Part shown: in pieces, positions 29,753 to 36,701 of the stretch
Numbering within the stretch: position 1 is the stretch's first letter
Layout of the letters: each line of letters begins with the position of its first letter
Assembly: GCA_016213785.1 (NCBI GenBank)
Contig: JACQZQ010000087.1
Coordinates: 1 to 62,252 of the forward strand
Origin: Acidobacteriota bacterium
GTDB lineage: Bacteria; Acidobacteriota; Blastocatellia; Chloracidobacteriales; JADJPF01
DNA length: 62,252 bases
Reading direction: 5' to 3'
The notes under the pieces: model-generated
What the model was told of the DNA's origin: nothing
Database searches by the model: none
Seen by the model: the letters and a program-made list of their open reading frames with translations, nothing else
Program-made: the position numbers and the translations under genes

Positions 29753-31258
29753 CTATCTTAAAAAACTATTACTAAACACTGGGTTTTTAGTGTTTTGCTC
29801 ATAAAAATCTTCTTTTACCGTGCCATCTGATTTTATTGTTAACATGGTAAAACCATTGTATACACGAACACCTCCATCAGGATTAGGAGTGTGTGCATAA
29901 TAAACTATATTTTCACACTCGTTTAGCTCCCATGCGTTCCCAAAAGGAAAAGCTGCATGCCCAGTACAACGAGCTAAAGTATTTCTGCCTGTAACAGTGG
30001 GTGATTTATAAACAATACCATTATGAACATGTCCCCAATACCAGGCTGCTGGATCGCCTCCTAGTGCAGAATTTAACTCTGTCCATAGGTTGGTTTCTTT
30101 TGAACCATCGTCAGTTAGTCCATTGTGGTGAGTCAGTACAATGACTTTGTTAGCTGATAGATTAAGATTTTTAATCCAAGATATTTGACCATCATCTGGT
30201 CCTCCTAAGCTGCCATTTGTAAAAAAGACTGAATGAGAAAAATAAGCGGAGTCAAGCCCTAATATCGTCCATCCACCATAAGCTAAAGCAAAATAACTTG
30301 TTTTCTGTTGTTGAGAAAAGCGTTGGTCTGCAAGCAAAACATTGAAATATCCTTTACCACCACTATACATTTCATGGTTAGAATTGAGAGCAAAAGAATT
30401 TGCTATTGGAGGCCAAAGAGCTAAAAAATTATTTTTCTCTTCGTTTAAAGGTAAAAAATCCCCTGCCGTGCCCGCATAATAGACATCCCCTAAGTGAATT
30501 ATATAGTCTGGTTTTAATGCTAATACCTGGTTAATAATGGCTTTTGCTGTATCATCACCTGTCCCCCAATCACCTAACAATGCTATTTTAACTCTCTGCG
30601 GCCTACTACCTACCAAAGAGATAGGTGGTACATTGGTTGTACTAAAAGGAACACGATTATGAGAAATAGTAGATATCATATAATCAATTGCTGCCCATAA
30701 CCAATTGGCATCAAGTGATTCATAAAAGTTTAATCCAAAAATACTACCATTCATTGCTACTACACCCATGGTTTTAACGGCATTTAGTAACGCATTGTAG
30801 TTTTCAGTGCTAATTTGTGTAGGAGCAAGTGATTGAAACACATCCCAAATGGCTTTGAATATTTTATGTTCATCCAAAAGTTTTTGAATAAAATTGGGTG
30901 GGTTATGTATCCAGTAAAGAAAAAGACCATACATTACTTCCCCACTTCCTCCTGGATCAACTGGCGGGGACCCAATCCAGATATTGTTGTGTATCATTAC
31001 TTCTATCAATTCATATTCACTAGCTTGCAAAAAACTAACAAAGCCCAATACATGAAGTTTCTCAGCAGAATCACGTAGACTTAATTGCAGTGGTTCATCA
31101 CTCTTTAATTGCTCTTCTAATTTATCAAGAGGCTGTTCAAACATATCTATATTGCTAGCTTGCAAAAAACTAACAATATTGGTTAGATGTAACTTCATTG
31201 CCTCATCTTCTTCCAAACGCAGTTTTGATTCATTGAGAGAGTCTTTGGGTAGATCCAT
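29753..31258 (-). CDS. Calcineurin-like metallophosphoesterase at the end of the peptide locus
   Basis: The 501 residues have a C-terminal metallophosphoesterase domain (about 218-480) with all metal motifs: ALLGDWGTGDD, YIIHLGDVYYAG (a GDxxY form as in purple acid phosphatases), NSNHEMY, VLTHHNG and WGHVHNG. The N-terminal 215 residues are unknown. They hold a 45-residue tandem duplication with VSFLQAS at 29-35 and 74-80; at DNA level a 22-bp exact repeat recurs at 31020-31041 and 31155-31176. There is no signal peptide. GAGGTGAATT precedes the ATG. It is the last gene of the minus-strand peptide locus, 118 nt after a precursor gene, with a long hairpin between. A tailoring or immunity role is conceivable, but an unrelated neighbour is equally possible. 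Confidence 0.83.
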   Translation of the reverse strand: MDLPKDSLNESKLRLEEDEAMKLHLTNIVSFLQASNIDMFEQPLDKLEEQLKSDEPLQLSLRDSAEKLHVLGFVSFLQASEYELIEVMIHNNIWIGSPPVDPGGSGEVMYGLFLYWIHNPPNFIQKLLDEHKIFKAIWDVFQSLAPTQISTENYNALLNAVKTMGVVAMNGSIFGLNFYESLDANWLWAAIDYMISTISHNRVPFSTTNVPPISLVGSRPQRVKIALLGDWGTGDDTAKAIINQVLALKPDYIIHLGDVYYAGTAGDFLPLNEEKNNFLALWPPIANSFALNSNHEMYSGGKGYFNVLLADQRFSQQQKTSYFALAYGGWTILGLDSAYFSHSVFFTNGSLGGPDDGQISWIKNLNLSANKVIVLTHHNGLTDDGSKETNLWTELNSALGGDPAAWYWGHVHNGIVYKSPTVTGRNTLARCTGHAAFPFGNAWELNECENIVYYAHTPNPDGGVRVYNGFTMLTIKSDGTVKEDFYEQNTKNPVFSNSFLR

Positions 31259-31376: not shown

Positions 31377-31586
31377 TTATGAGCATTCTTGGAAGCACTG
31401 AACCGCTTTTGGCCCAGCACAAGCTACCCAGCAAGGTATGCTGGTTAAACAATAAGCACACTTAAGAGCACCTAAGCCTAAACATTTCACCATACACCAA
31501 ATATCGATAGAGGGCATCACATTAGCTTGAGGCGCTGTTGCACTAAAACTTCTCATTACAGGTTTAGCTTGATTTGGTAATCTCAT
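31377..31586 (-). CDS. Cys-rich RiPP-like precursor peptide 1
   Basis: The 69-residue peptide begins MRLPNQAKPVMRSF. An in-frame upstream extension exists, but TAGGAGGAATA directly before this ATG and the identical start of its twin fix the start. Residues 1-26 look like a leader ending NVMPS; residues 27-69 are the core, with eight Cys at 31, 35, 43, 46, 52, 56, 64 and 68. The core is an internal repeat: C-x3-C-x7-C-x2-C then C-x3-C-x7-C-x3-C. This suggests two small helical hairpins cross-linked by disulfides, thioethers or metal. Leader and V-x-PS site resemble cyanobactin-type protease recognition. It is about 75 percent identical to peptide 2. It is the last precursor gene of the locus. 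Real expression and modification are inferred. Confidence 0.78.
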   Translation of the reverse strand: MRLPNQAKPVMRSFSATAPQANVMPSIDIWCMVKCLGLGALKCAYCLTSIPCWVACAGPKAVQCFQECS

Positions 31587-31631
31587 TATTCCTCCTAAAT
31601 TCCTGCTAAAAAATAATTGTTTATTAGATAA

Positions 31632-31668
31632 AGCTTTAGTCATCACTGTTAAAATGACGACTAAAGCT
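31632..31668 (-). promoter_or_regulatory. Hairpin between peptide genes 2 and 1
   Basis: Arms AGCTTTAGTCATCA (31632-31645) and 31655-31668 pair with one mismatch around a 9-nt loop. It lies in the mRNA upstream of peptide 1 and within the unlikely N-terminal extension of that ORF. It could set the ratio of the twin peptides by stopping read-through or protecting RNA ends. Confidence 0.5.
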
Positions 31669-31773
31669 CAGAATAAGAGCTTGTTTTGAGAGCAAAATTA
31701 ATACATAAGCAAGTTGGAGTTGAAGCGATATTACTTATGTTTTTCACTACCAACACCAATGATTTGTATTAAT

Positions 31774-31983
31774 TTATGAGCATTGTTGGAAGCATTGAAC
31801 TGCTTTTGGTCCAGCACAAGATATCCAGCAACTTATGTCTGTTCCACATTTAAGACAACCAATTGCTCCAAATCCTAGACACTTTATCATGCACCAAACA
31901 TCAAAAGAGGGTGTCACATCAGCTTGTGGTGCTGCTGCACTAAAACTTCTCATTACAGGTTTAGCTTGATTTGGTAATCTCAT
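31774..31983 (-). CDS. Cys-rich RiPP-like precursor peptide 2
   Basis: The 69-residue peptide has the same length, start (MRLPNQAKPVMRSFSA) and Cys positions (31, 35, 43, 46, 52, 56, 64, 68) as peptide 1. The leader ends DVTPS at 22-26 and the core begins FDVWC. Variation between the twins is concentrated in residues 24-55 (the end of the leader and the first half of the core), while the C-terminal block CAGPKAVQCFQ is invariant. TAGGAGGAATA precedes the ATG. It is separated from peptide 1 by 187 nt that include a hairpin and from peptide 3 by 274 nt. The pair looks like a recent tandem duplication under selection on the Cys scaffold. No homologous antibiotic is recognised. Confidence 0.78.
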   Translation of the reverse strand: MRLPNQAKPVMRSFSAAAPQADVTPSFDVWCMIKCLGFGAIGCLKCGTDISCWISCAGPKAVQCFQQCS

Positions 31984-32257
31984 TATTCCTCCTAAAAAAA
32001 TATAGTATTGTTCATTGTTTCAGCCCTATATCATCCACACCATAAGCGGGTTGATACACTATTAACGTCTCGAAAATAAAAAGGTTAAACAAAGCAAAAT
32101 TAACTAATGCGTTTAAAGAAAAAGGTTTTTGAGCAAGTAATGGAACTTAATGAGCTTTTCCATTAGAATTGTGCAAAAATATTAGCTTTAAGACTATTGG
32201 TTTAGTCTTTTGCTTAGTAACCAAAATCTTTCCAATTTCATTATTTCAAATAATTAC

Positions 32258-32470
32258 TTAACAACGTTGACAGGTTCCGCTATTAAGTAGTAATGATTTT
32301 CCACCTATAGCTCTACAGTTATGACAATCATATCTCTCGCCTATAACTCTACCTGTACAATCCGTTGTGTTGTAACACTTCAAGCTTGGCTCAATCCCTT
32401 TATTGAAAATGAACCTACTTGAATTAAAAGACACTCTCTCTATAGAAGGAGATTGTTTTGGTAATCGCAT
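32258..32470 (-). CDS. Cys-rich RiPP-like precursor peptide 3 (different core)
   Basis: The 70-residue peptide starts MRLPKQSPSIERVSF, sharing the MRLPxQ opening with the twins but with a different body. The leader ends with GIEPS (25-29), which fits the cyanobactin recognition consensus G-[LV]-E-[AP]-S apart from a conservative I. The core (30-70) has six Cys at 32, 38, 49, 52, 67 and 70; two are in CxxC pairs (CHNC, CQRC), giving a zinc-ribbon-like spacing. GGAGG precedes the ATG. It lies 52 nt after the double PatG-domain gene and is thus the first precursor in the transcript. The product is unknown. Confidence 0.72.
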   Translation of the reverse strand: MRLPKQSPSIERVSFNSSRFIFNKGIEPSLKCYNTTDCTGRVIGERYDCHNCRAIGGKSLLLNSGTCQRC

Positions 32471-32522: not shown

Positions 32523-34595
32523 TTACATAGTCCAAGTACGCATTTTTCCTATTTTCACAGGAACAATGTCACTAACATCTATTGTAAATCGATACATTCT
32601 ACGAGCTTGGTTATTGCCAGAGGGATCAAAAAATATTAGCTTTACATCCCAGCAATCTCCACTTGGCCGGCAAATAGGGCTAGGCTCTACATCTATAGAC
32701 TGAAGATCCAGACTCTTATTTATGGCAGAGCTATAGACAGTATCTAGTTGGAATGCGCGAGTTGCAGCATAGTTAATAGCCCTTTCTTGGGGGCTAAGTC
32801 CTAGATTACGAATTTCATAGTAAACTCTTGCAAGAAAATTCCCTAATCCACCATCAATTCTATCTGCTACTGCTTTACTTTTTGTCTCATCCCAGTTGCC
32901 TCTTTTTCGCGTTTCTTCTGCGCGACTTCTAGACTTTTCAGTTAGTGTGTTTATTGACCATGCATACATACCTCTAACTTCTGGATGGATTACTGGTAAG
33001 GTATAGCCATTAAGTAAAGTGACTTTACCAGAAACAACCCCTGGTATTGATATTTGTTCTTCTTCCTTTTGTTCTTTAAGAAACTCTCTTAAACGTTGAT
33101 AGCCTACATCTGCAAAAGACCCAAATGGTTGAATAGCATATATTGGGATATCATCTGAATTAAGTGTCCAAATGACATCAGTAGCATCAGAAGGATTATT
33201 TTCAAGGTGGGCTAATAGTACTTCTGGTAAATCAACCTCTCCTCCATCAGTTTGTTGTACAAATGAGTCACGTCTTGCTTCAGTACCAAAGTCATAGCCA
33301 ATTTGCCCTAATGCATACACTAAAGAAGATGATATACCGTTACTATTATTACTTTTGCTACCATTACTACATTTACAATCGCCATTTCCACCAGAAGGAA
33401 AGATGCTATTAATATAAGGATTACTAAGAAAAGATTGTTTTTCTACAGTTTGGAGTTGGAAGTTATCTACTAGTGTTGCTTCTTGTTTTATTACACTTGA
33501 TTGATTTAGTTTAGTAAGACCTGATGGTTCAATAGCTCCAGACATAGACACTAAATCATTGTCAACATACCAATCACGTACTTCTCCTACTACAACAGGA
33601 ATAATGTCACTAACATCTATGGTAAATCGATATACTCTACGAGCTTGCTCAAAGCGACTATTAGGGTTGAAAAATATTAATTTCACATCCCAACAATCTC
33701 TTCCTGGTCTACAAGTTGAATTAGCTTCTACATCTATTGTATCAAGACTCATTTCTGCATTTATTGCAGAAATATAGATGTTATTAAGTTGGAATGCATT
33801 AGTTGCTGCATGGTTAATAGCTCTTTCTTGTGAAGAAAGCCCTAGATTACGAGCTTCATGGTAGATTCGTCTAAGAAAATTGATTATTGCTTGAGTTTTA
33901 TTGAATTGTCGTGCTCTTTCTTCTTCATTTTCTGAAATTTCTCCTATCAAACTTTTAATTAATGTAGCAGTTGACCAGCTATACATACCTCTAACATCAG
34001 GAAATAGCACTGGTACAGTGTGCCCATTGATTAAAGAAACCTTACCAGAAACAATACCTGGTATTGATACTCGCTCTGTCCCATCTTCTCCTTGGGCTTT
34101 GAGAAATTCCATTAGATATTGATAACCAATAGCAGCAAAAGGCCCAAATGGCCGAATAGCATATATTGGGGTACTGTCTAAATTAAGCGTCCAGATAACA
34201 CTAGCAGCATCAGAAGGATTATTTTCAAAATTTGCTAACAGTTCTGCTACTGAAATGATACCTTCTTCGTTAGGTTTTTCTAATAATGAATCGCGTCTTG
34301 CTTCAGTACCAAAGTCAAAGCCAATGTGCCCCAGTGCATATACTAGGGATGGTGGTGTACTGCCACCACATCCACAGCTACCACCTTCACCAGAAGGAGA
34401 TATATTACTTAGATAAGAGCCATTAGTGGAAATAGGATCTATCTCTATCTTTTCTGGTCTTGGGATATTCGCCATAGTCACTTCTTTTTCATTTGGTCTA
34501 GTAAGTCCTGATGGTTGAATGGATTCCGACACAGCAATGGAATTGTTGTCTAGGATCTGGAGCGATTCAGAAACTTCTATTCTTTGTTCGGACAT
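32523..34595 (-). CDS. Double PatG C-terminal-domain protein without protease
   Basis: The 690-residue protein contains two complete copies of the PatG C-terminal unit (PatG_D plus PatG_C regions of the cyanobactin macrocyclase), at about 84-345 and 424-690. Each begins LVYALGxIGxDFGTEARRDS and ends with CWDVKLIFF and a YRFTIDVSDI block. Before each unit lie an IxPSG motif (26-30 and 355-359) and a second I-x-PSG followed by a CxC cluster (65-76 with SCGCGG; 398-409 with DCKC). The first 20 residues copy the region after Met308 of the neighbouring protease. AAGGAG precedes the ATG. The PatG unit has no assigned activity; leader binding or scaffolding is inferred. The gene arose by duplication, as shown by protease remnants upstream. 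Confidence 0.85.
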   Translation of the reverse strand: MSEQRIEVSESLQILDNNSIAVSESIQPSGLTRPNEKEVTMANIPRPEKIEIDPISTNGSYLSNISPSGEGGSCGCGGSTPPSLVYALGHIGFDFGTEARRDSLLEKPNEEGIISVAELLANFENNPSDAASVIWTLNLDSTPIYAIRPFGPFAAIGYQYLMEFLKAQGEDGTERVSIPGIVSGKVSLINGHTVPVLFPDVRGMYSWSTATLIKSLIGEISENEEERARQFNKTQAIINFLRRIYHEARNLGLSSQERAINHAATNAFQLNNIYISAINAEMSLDTIDVEANSTCRPGRDCWDVKLIFFNPNSRFEQARRVYRFTIDVSDIIPVVVGEVRDWYVDNDLVSMSGAIEPSGLTKLNQSSVIKQEATLVDNFQLQTVEKQSFLSNPYINSIFPSGGNGDCKCSNGSKSNNSNGISSSLVYALGQIGYDFGTEARRDSFVQQTDGGEVDLPEVLLAHLENNPSDATDVIWTLNSDDIPIYAIQPFGSFADVGYQRLREFLKEQKEEEQISIPGVVSGKVTLLNGYTLPVIHPEVRGMYAWSINTLTEKSRSRAEETRKRGNWDETKSKAVADRIDGGLGNFLARVYYEIRNLGLSPQERAINYAATRAFQLDTVYSSAINKSLDLQSIDVEPSPICRPSGDCWDVKLIFFDPSGNNQARRMYRFTIDVSDIVPVKIGKMRTWTM

Positions 34596-34735
34596 ACTTT
34601 CTCCTTTTTAACTTTTTTAATGCTCTGATAACATTAGTAGTGTCGGCAATCTGAGAATAGTTCTTATCTATAGCCAGATATCTAAACTTATTTCTTTAGC
34701 AAAGCAAAATTGCCAACTTGTACATATTGGATATT
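34596..34735 (-). pseudogene. Decayed 3' end of a subtilisin domain upstream of the double PatG gene
   Basis: The minus strand aligns by eye with the end of the protease domain of the neighbouring gene (around 35781-35905): CGGCAATCTGAGAAT against TGGCAGTCTGAAAAT, TGCT..ATAA.ATT blocks, and the A-rich run before the ribosome binding site. It has a roughly 12-nt deletion and a one-base deletion that breaks the frame (readable as IRALKKLK against IEALKKIK). Homology fades beyond about 34700. Confidence 0.6.
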
Positions 34736-36701
34736 AGTAAACATGCCAGTCGCGTACTGTTCCTACTGACACAGGTATAATGTCGCTAACATCTACAGTG
34801 AATCGATATACTCTACGAGCTTGTTCAAATCGTTTAGAAGGATTGAAAAATGTCAATTTTACATCCCAACAATCTGATCCTAGCCTGCAAATGGGGCTAC
34901 GCTCTACACCAATTGTATCAAGAGTCATATTGTCTTTTATTGCAGACCTATAGGCTTGACTGACTTGAAATGCATTAGTTGCTGCATAGTTAATAGCTCT
35001 ATCTTGTGAAGAAAGCCCTAGATTACGGATTTCATAATAAACTCGTGCAAGAAAATTATGTATTTCTTGAATTTTCTTTTCTTTGTCTTCTTCTCCAAGA
35101 CCTTCTACTAAACTATTAACTAATGCGCCTGTTGACCAACTATACATACCTCTAACATCAGGAAAGAGTACTGGTATGGTATGACCATTAAGTAAAGTGA
35201 CTTTACCTGAAACAACTCCTGGTATCGACACTCGTTCTATTTCTGCTTCTTGCTGTGCCTTTAAAAACTCCCTTAAACGGTCATAACCAATAGTAGCAAA
35301 AGGCCCTAATGGTTGAATGGCATATATTGGAGTAGTATCTTGGTTAAGCGTCCAAATAACACCACTAGCCTGAGCGGGATTATTTTCAACATATGCTAAG
35401 AGTTCTGTTGGTAAATCGGTATTTTTTCCAGACTGTTGCAGAAATGAGTCGCGTCTTGCTTCAGTACCAAAGTCATATCCAATTTGTCCCAGTACATAAG
35501 CTAGAGAGGGCGGTGTATTATTACCACCACATCCACACCCACCATTTCCACCAGAAGGAAAGACACCACTACTTGCATAGATGCTACTATTACCAGGGAA
35601 AGACTGCGTTTGTGTACTTTGTGCTAAGGGATTTACTATAGACATCTCTTTTTTCATCATGCTTGATTCATTTGGTTTGGAAAGCCCTGAGCCTGAGGGT
35701 TGAATGCTTTCCGACACAGGAACGGAATTGTTGTTTATAACCTGGAGCAATTGAGAAGCTTCTATTCTTTGTTCGGACATGTTTTCTCCTTTTTTAATTT
35801 TTTTCAGTGCTTCAATAATATTGATACGACCTGCTAAAAGACGTTGGCAGTCTGAAAATGACTCTTCACCACATCCAGTAGCAGTATCTAAAATTACTTG
35901 GCGTATAAGACTAGGATTGATTTTTAAACCTTGTTTTAACTGTATGCTTAATAATAATGCAACAATACCTGAGACTATTGGAGTCGCAAAGCTTGTACCT
36001 GTGCGTAAAGCCGTTTCTCCGCCTGGCGTTGCTACCAAGATATTTTGACCAGGAGCAAGAACACCTTGAACTTGATATTTTTTACCCCAATTACTACTTT
36101 CTAATGGTGAACCTTGTCTATCCATTGCGCCTACAGCAAGCACAGAAGGAAGCGCAGCAGGAATGTGTAGACATTCACAACCATTATTTCCTGCGGCAGC
36201 AATAATTAATACATTATTTTTGGCACACAAACGTATAGCATCAGCTAATAATGGTTCAGCTTGACCAGTATTATCTAACTGTCCACCACTTATATTTATA
36301 ATATGTGCTCCATGTTGCACTGCCAAAGAAATAGCACGCGCAAGGTCAAGTTGTGAACAGGAAATAGATGAATCTGCATTACTGCCAAACACAGGTATTG
36401 ATAGACCTCGACAATAAGGAGCAATACCCCTTACTGTCCCTTTATGTGTACCGAAAATTATGCTGGCTACATTTGTACCGTGTTCTATTGGAAACCTTGC
36501 TGCTGACTTAGCTGATACAACAGTATCAATGGCTTTAAGATTAGCACCAATAAAACAGGGATGAGATAAATCTACTTGTCCATCAAGCACTGCAATGCAT
36601 ATGCTTGAGTTTCCTAGTGTTTCTCTCCATAACTCATCAAGACCTAATAACAATGGATCATTACTTTTGTTTGGAAGTATATTTGAATTTGTAACATTCA
36701 T
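34734..36701 (-). CDS. PatA/PatG-type subtilisin fused to a PatG C-terminal unit
   Basis: The 655-residue protein has a subtilase domain (about 15-300) close to the cyanobactin maturation proteases (LWRETLG, CIAVLDGQVDLSHPCF). The catalytic triad is Asp40, His74 (EHGTNV) and Ser237 (GTSFATP), with Asn172 as oxyanion residue. It has no signal peptide, so it acts in the cytosol on peptide precursors. A linker with IQPSG (333-337) and VFPSG plus CGCGG (380-393) leads to one PatG_D/PatG_C unit (400-655). Cyanobactin PatA cleaves precursors before the core; the GIEPS/VxPS sites in the three peptides are fitting substrates. An internal Shine-Dalgarno and Met308 mark an old gene junction. It is the first gene of the locus; no YcaO, oxidase or PatG macrocyclase protease is present. 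Confidence 0.9.
   Translation of the reverse strand: MNVTNSNILPNKSNDPLLLGLDELWRETLGNSSICIAVLDGQVDLSHPCFIGANLKAIDTVVSAKSAARFPIEHGTNVASIIFGTHKGTVRGIAPYCRGLSIPVFGSNADSSISCSQLDLARAISLAVQHGAHIINISGGQLDNTGQAEPLLADAIRLCAKNNVLIIAAAGNNGCECLHIPAALPSVLAVGAMDRQGSPLESSNWGKKYQVQGVLAPGQNILVATPGGETALRTGTSFATPIVSGIVALLLSIQLKQGLKINPSLIRQVILDTATGCGEESFSDCQRLLAGRINIIEALKKIKKGENMSEQRIEASQLLQVINNNSVPVSESIQPSGSGLSKPNESSMMKKEMSIVNPLAQSTQTQSFPGNSSIYASSGVFPSGGNGGCGCGGNNTPPSLAYVLGQIGYDFGTEARRDSFLQQSGKNTDLPTELLAYVENNPAQASGVIWTLNQDTTPIYAIQPLGPFATIGYDRLREFLKAQQEAEIERVSIPGVVSGKVTLLNGHTIPVLFPDVRGMYSWSTGALVNSLVEGLGEEDKEKKIQEIHNFLARVYYEIRNLGLSSQDRAINYAATNAFQVSQAYRSAIKDNMTLDTIGVERSPICRLGSDCWDVKLTFFNPSKRFEQARRVYRFTVDVSDIIPVSVGTVRDWHVY
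35778..35792 (-). promoter_or_regulatory. Internal ribosome binding site and ATG (Met308) within the protease gene
   Basis: AAAGGAG lies 5 nt before an in-frame ATG at the junction between protease and PatG region. The same sequence context, including MSEQRIE, starts the separate downstream gene. It could yield a stand-alone PatG unit of 348 residues, or be a relic of two fused genes. Confidence 0.6.

Follow-up and report, generated by a model that had tools for sequence, protein, structure and literature searches.

Cassette layout and the question that it raises

Three short genes in an Acidobacteriota contig encode peptides with similar leader ends directly before a Cys-rich segment, and they raise the question of whether a cyanobactin-type protease frees that segment and at which bond it would cut. 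Throughout the window, that is, the whole 62,252-nucleotide stretch of DNA that was analyzed, positions are counted from its first letter. The genes of interest lie on the minus strand in the transcription order subtilase (36701-34734), 690-amino-acid (aa) protein (34595-32523), P3, P2, and P1, with the following features.

34734..36701, minus strand: PatA-type S8 protease, 655 aa, with S8 domain, disordered linker, and PatG_D/PatG_C; predicted leader peptidase (TIGR03895, Pfam, PDB matches, model)
35694..35708, minus strand: SIQPS motif, protease linker residues 332-336 (linker pLDDT <50)
35553..35567, minus strand: GVFPS motif, protease linker residues 379-383, followed by GGNGGCGCGG (sequence, model)
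32523..34595, minus strand: 690-aa protein of two tandem PatG_D+PatG_C modules without protease domain (TIGR03895 C-terminal half twice; PF18047/PF18065 twice)
32258..32470, minus strand: precursor peptide 3 (P3), 70 aa; leader 1-29; predicted core LKCYNTTDCTGRVIGERYDCHNCRAIGGKSLLLNSGTCQRC, 41 aa, 6 Cys
32384..32398, minus strand: GIEPS recognition motif of P3, predicted cut after Ser29; the same five residues occur in a precursor from a Streptomyces xanthophaeus plasmid
31774..31983, minus strand: precursor peptide 2 (P2), 69 aa; leader 1-26; predicted core FDVWCMIKCLGFGAIGCLKCGTDISCWISCAGPKAVQCFQQCS, 43 aa, 8 Cys
31906..31920, minus strand: DVTPS recognition motif of P2, predicted cut after Ser26
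31377..31586, minus strand: precursor peptide 1 (P1), 69 aa; leader 1-26; predicted core IDIWCMVKCLGLGALKCAYCLTSIPCWVACAGPKAVQCFQECS, 43 aa, 8 Cys; homologues in locus L039
31509..31523, minus strand: NVMPS recognition motif of P1, predicted cut after Ser26 (sequence and family conservation)

All three precursor genes have AGGAGG ahead of the ATG, so the ATG starts are right and a longer GTG reading of P1 is unnecessary; a purine-rich ribosome site also precedes the gene of the 690-aa double-domain protein. A terminator scan, whose matches were overall no more numerous than in shuffles, gave no site between the cassette genes, and no exporter gene was recognized adjoining the cassette. Downstream, a metallophosphoesterase is encoded at 29753-31258, with an N-terminal segment that is apparently repeated (HLTNIVSFLQASNIDMFEQPLDKLEEQL / HVLGFVSFLQASEYELIE).

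The cassette encodes a PatA subtype

The initial annotation had placed a PatA-type protease next to the peptides, and the adjacent gene is indeed a member of the PatA/PatG family. Its product matched TIGR03895 at 706.3 bits (curated cut-off, 421.05), contains the domains PF00082, PF18047, and PF18065, and retains all catalytic residues, namely, the triad D40, H74, and S237 together with N172. In sequence comparison it scored 341 bits with PagA, 314 with PatA, and 175 with the PatG macrocyclase, and the best matches of its predicted structure were PagA (Z 47.5, rmsd 1.1) and PatA (Z 46.0). The Asp-His spacing is 34, versus 35 in cyanobacterial PatA (the comparison is with PatA; the triad pattern did not pick up PatG proteins). 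In a tree of 45 proteins, which was midpoint rooted and has several long branches, the window protease grouped with PatA-only loci of several phyla in a clade of 19 rows (support 100/100), and this clade stands apart from that of cyanobacterial PatA and PatG. The window protease is a PatA subtype, nearer to PatA/PagA than to the PatG macrocyclase. We found no PatD-like gene in the loci of the 19-row clade and no PatB (TIGR04220) in the seven genomes of this clade that were tested. Several genomes with other PatA-only loci carry YcaO genes outside those loci; the general statement is therefore limited to the lack of a PatD-like gene in the loci. In two loci of the same phylum (L112 and L113, genomes G021 and G135), the PatG_C domain is encoded by a separate gene of 316 to 336 aa, which in G021 lies beside a separate S8 gene.

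Other parts of the cyanobactin pathway were searched for in the whole assembly, which is 96% complete. It contains no YcaO heterocyclase, no match to the PatB family TIGR04220, and no PatG-type C-terminal protease that we could find; just one TIGR03895 match exceeded the cut-off, and the remaining matches were either subtilases at ≤61 bits or the double-domain protein. The window cassette is not a canonical cyanobactin pathway but a PatA-only variant of cyanobactin-type leader processing, in a genome without YcaO. The description "cyanobactin-like" given in the initial annotation applies to leader removal and not to the rest, with heterocyclase, macrocyclase, and C-terminal recognition sequence all missing. 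According to a 2015 review, cyanobactin clusters were known only from cyanobacteria and always with A and G proteases (PMC4663559); a second paper describes cyanobactins that have no heterocyclase (PMC4603692). We found no description of PatA-only systems in the open-access papers searched, and an earlier report elsewhere is possible.

A [VI]xPS motif ends each leader

For PatA, the published recognition consensus reads G(L/V)E(A/P)S, and PatA is reported to cut after it in cyanobactin precursors (PMC10885120). A site of this RSII type is present before the core of the window peptides in relaxed form (NVMPS, DVTPS, and GIEPS), confirming the V/I-x-P-S leader ends reported in the initial annotation. 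The open reading frames read MRLPNQAKPVMRSFSATAPQANVMPS/IDIWC... (P1), MRLPNQAKPVMRSFSAAAPQADVTPS/FDVWC... (P2), and MRLPKQSPSIERVSFNSSRFIFNKGIEPS/LKC... (P3), the slash marking the predicted cut. In P1 and P2, four residues separate Ser26 from Cys31, and in P3, two residues separate Ser29 from Cys32; the spacing of two to four residues from motif to first Cys thus holds for all three. The agreement with the PatA consensus proved partial: GIEPS of P3 and its relatives fit, whereas P5 is N in P1 and D in P2 rather than G. The three leaders also share an M-R-LP-x-Q start and Arg at position 12 ahead of the [GND]-[VI]-x-P-S site.

When residues 13 to 45 were shuffled 5,000 times, [VI]xPS was expected in a mean of 0.06 of the 3 peptides, and 3 of 3 was reached in none of the shuffles. 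In the same stretch of 307 other small ATG open reading frames from nine loci, [VI]xPS occurred in 7 and G[VIL]x[PA]S in none. P1 and P2 are paralogues (75% identical) and hence count as roughly one observation, so that homologues in other phyla carry the weight. Matches to curated precursor models stayed below the cut-offs: TIGR03678, the patellamide leader model, matched P1 and P2 weakly, at 16.8 and 16.5 bits (E of 0.006 to 0.008; cut-off, 39.6), over the LP-x-Q-x-x-PV-x-R part, PF19155 scored 9.5 and 8.7 bits on P1 and P2 (below its cut-off of 25), and neither model matched P3. No C-terminal RSIII (AYDG and similar; FAGDDAE) is present in P1 to P3, which end in QECS, QQCS, and CQRC, and no double-glycine site was found at their leader ends.

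The site is conserved in homologous precursors

Searching 84,980 species genomes with a PatG_D/PatG_C alignment, we obtained 77 loci in Cyanobacteriota, Pseudomonadota, Planctomycetota, Acidobacteriota, Nitrospirota, Hydrogenedentota, Actinomycetota, and one archaeal metagenome-assembled genome (MAG), an assignment to be read with the caution that MAG contigs can be misassigned. Neither a scan of genome contigs with the window protease alone as the query nor a scan of viral contigs found a relative. Using a leader model, we found precursors directly downstream of the protease in many noncyanobacterial loci, and in about 20 loci a PatA-type gene has precursors with a P1-P3-type leader downstream of it. 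Some 30 additional precursors encoded next to homologous proteases combine the leader start M-x-LP-x-Q-x-x-PV-x-R, or one near it, with a G-[VIL]-x-[PA]-S-like border site. In a genome of the same order (G004), two peptides with such leaders, carrying GVTLS and GIRPS, are encoded after a PatA-type gene. Border sites elsewhere are GVTAS and GLLPS (Cellvibrio), GLQPS (Oxalobacteraceae), GIEQS and GVEAS (Shewanella hanedai), GLLPS (Alphaproteobacteria), GVLPS and GVIPS (Acidobacteriota L039), GVTPS (Proteobacteria), and GIHPS and NVTAS (Mesorhizobium); three loci added later, with a similar leader start, have GVQPS (Acaryochloris), GIKPS (Gloeocapsa), and GIEPS (Streptomyces plasmid). An alignment of homologous precursors, a check proposed with the initial annotation, is thus positive across Acidobacteriota, several proteobacterial groups, Cyanobacteriota, and Streptomyces.

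Among the 19 precursors with the clearest leaders, [VIL]x[PA]S was found in 14 (shuffle mean, 1.6) and G[VIL]x[PA]S in 11 (shuffle mean, 0.22), with none of 5,000 shuffles as high in either case, figures that overstate independence because the sequences are partly related. The site is kept while most cores of these 19 differ from one another. By residue, with the register set by eye in 36 genes, P5 was G in 25, P4 was V/I/L in 35, P2 was P in 29 and A in 5, and P1 was S in 26; the other 10 have Q, A, T, L, or C at P1, so Ser is not absolute. The shuffle counts above involve no choice of register by eye. When the window was compared with 23 other loci, the protease/DUF protein was the only gene family common to all; other shared families were of general types (response regulators, kinases, oxidoreductases, etc.) in ≤6 loci each. 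Among open reading frames of at least 120 aa, no modification enzyme or exporter common to the precursor loci was found. No NCBIfam or Pfam model covers the precursor peptide family, and the leader features offer a handle for finding it.

Predicted cores are long and Cys rich

The P1 and P2 cores aligned without gaps to two L039 peptides, with all eight Cys invariant, and P3 has a homologous peptide in Cellvibrio (L029:8844-9053; E=1e-12). A search of 396 genomes of the same phylum found P1/P2-type peptides in the window's own genome alone. In a low-confidence model of P2, the leader is disordered and the core is helical from residue 29. The even numbers of Cys (8, 8, and 6), the lack of YcaO in the genome, and the lack of a shared modification gene suggest that the P1 to P3 cores form disulfides. 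Formation of azol(in)es in the window peptides was considered and rejected, the assembly being without YcaO.

Compared with PatA of Prochloron or PagA and their PatE precursors, the window has the same S8 protease with PatG_D/PatG_C, the same leader segment LP-x-Q-x-x-PV-x-R, and a G(L/V)E(A/P)S-type site before the core. Unlike those systems, it lacks any PatD, PatG, or PatB that we could find, as well as a C-terminal recognition sequence; PatE cores are short and cyclized, whereas those of the window have 41 to 43 aa and are Cys rich, and the acidic leader stretch LAELSEEAL of PatE-type precursors is absent. PatD-free cyanobacterial PatA loci (Symploca L032, Komarekiella L036, and Oscillatoria L057) are similar in having one PatA-type protease followed by several small MxLPxQ open reading frames, but their cores differ, and L057 is on a different branch of the protease tree. 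The lanthipeptide S8 leader peptidases NisP, ElxP, and AmyP belong to lanthionine-forming pathways and are not known to carry a PatG_D/PatG_C domain. As in the proposed system, leader removal falls to a subtilase that acts at a short motif, but the motifs are other ones (PMC10885120). In the window and its relatives, the leader-removal half of the cyanobactin machinery stands by itself, forms a separate clade, and is accompanied by long Cys-rich peptides, in Acidobacteriota as well as in several further phyla.

Probable leader cleavage by the PatA-type protease

Taken together, we consider it probable that the locus is a PatA-type maturation cassette, in which the subtilase recognizes the border site, cuts after Ser26, Ser26, and Ser29, and frees linear Cys-rich cores. 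We infer the scissile bonds of P1, P2, and P3 and the identity of the cutting protease from homology of enzyme, site, and position, which make these bonds the likely ones. The subtilase would read the exposed leader-border site through P4 Val/Ile, P2 Pro, and P1 Ser; hydrolysis would leave P1 to P3 as linear cores (43, 43, and 41 residues; 8, 8, and 6 Cys) that begin with Ile27, Phe27, and Leu30. The freed cores, running to the C terminus, would then form disulfides, and the products may be antimicrobial or serve in signaling. PatA or its C-terminal domain is also the likely reader of the leader start LP-x-Q-x-x-PV-x-R, since the segment persists in loci in which no pathway enzyme besides PatA was found. 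PatA-only loci thus point to two precursor features that belong to PatA alone, this start and the [VI]xPS site, and give a clue, open to experiment, to what the PatA/PatG C-terminal domain does, a role long described as unknown (PMC4259220).

An unlikely alternative is that [VI]xPS is mainly a docking tag for the PatG_D/PatG_C domain, with the cut made nearby or by another protease. The motif does stand directly ahead of this domain in PatA/PatG proteins and ahead of stand-alone copies of it (L037 and the window double-domain protein, whose linkers each carry [VI]xPSG motifs: SIQPS, NISPS, AIEPS, and SIFPS). Against this, PatA is reported to cleave after the consensus in cyanobactin precursors (PMC10885120), and nuclear magnetic resonance detected no binding of the PatE' precursor in an experiment confined to PatG's copy of the domain (PMC4259220). 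It is very improbable that the protease is a ligase or macrocyclase with a head-to-tail circular product: PatG, another member of this family, has transamidase activity (PMC4663559), but the window protease is PatA type by Asp-His spacing, is nearest to PagA/PatA, and falls outside the PatG clade, and the precursors end without a follower of the AYDG or FAGDDAE kind. Equally improbable is leader removal by an export-linked or general protease, with the PatA-like gene serving another purpose; any export would need another system, as no export partner was recognized in the cassette, but about 20 loci have leader-type precursors downstream of a PatA-type gene, P1/P2-type precursors were found in none of the other genomes among the 396 searched in the phylum, and the leaders have no double-glycine end.

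The motif recurs inside the protease linker

Cleavage by the PatA-type protease remains our preferred reading, and the enzymes themselves carry the motif. In 39 PatA-type proteins, 75 copies of [VI]x[PA]S were counted in the linker before PatG_D, spread across 33 linkers, compared with 10.9 after shuffling (maximum of 23 over 1,000 shuffles), composition-matched shuffles being an imperfect control for linkers that are of low complexity and partly related. The remaining 22,622 residues of these proteins contain 21 copies. In proteins of the window and of loci L029 to L105, the linker copies often precede a Cys-Gly-rich stretch. Cyanobacterial PatG has VEAS-x-AYxG at the linker place, and Prochloron PatG as solved (4uvq) starts with AMVEASTAFSG there, resembling both PatE recognition sequences. 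The enrichment fits the title of PDB entry 3zxx, "Structure of self-cleaved protease domain of PatA," and self-processing of PatA/PatG at the linker is plausible. PatA itself has a VEA(S) motif right after its protease domain. Tentatively, the linker copies could be a built-in substrate by which the protease trims itself, releases its C-terminal domain, or holds a competing substrate, a proposal with somewhat less than even chances. If true, maturation of the enzyme and of the peptides in several phyla would be governed by one short motif, and the C-terminal domain would be a separable module. We found no description of a cut motif in the PatA/PatG linker in the open-access papers searched. 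Docking of the linker motif in the active site was unsupported: the window protease model leaves residues 312 to 394 disordered and is neutral on self-cleavage.

Further gene sets near PatG_D/PatG_C genes

Several other arrangements were observed among the loci. In L077 (Sphingomonas) and L092 (Bradyrhizobium), PatA, PatG-like, and PatD-like genes form near-complete cyanobactin-type sets in proteobacteria. L049 and L055 contain tandem precursor genes with near-identical ends (MKNKTVMPKQAAPVERLSPATAG ... PFAGDDAE) and differing short cores, with no PatD-like gene found in either locus. PatB-like small proteins (L062, L065, L071, L074, L082, and others) begin with LP-x-Q-x-x-PV-x-R as in precursors, e.g., MKLPKQSPPVKRPDLIQPHEAV, which shows that the segment also occurs outside precursors. 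Finally, a small protein with the pattern GLGD...K.C..C..R...LNR recurs near PatG_D/PatG_C genes, some copies having the LP-x-Q leader start, at the following positions.

L039:3605-3799, L037:6653-6856, L045:6862-7053, L112:9575-9727, and L113:10947-11093: GLGD...K.C..C..R...LNR small proteins
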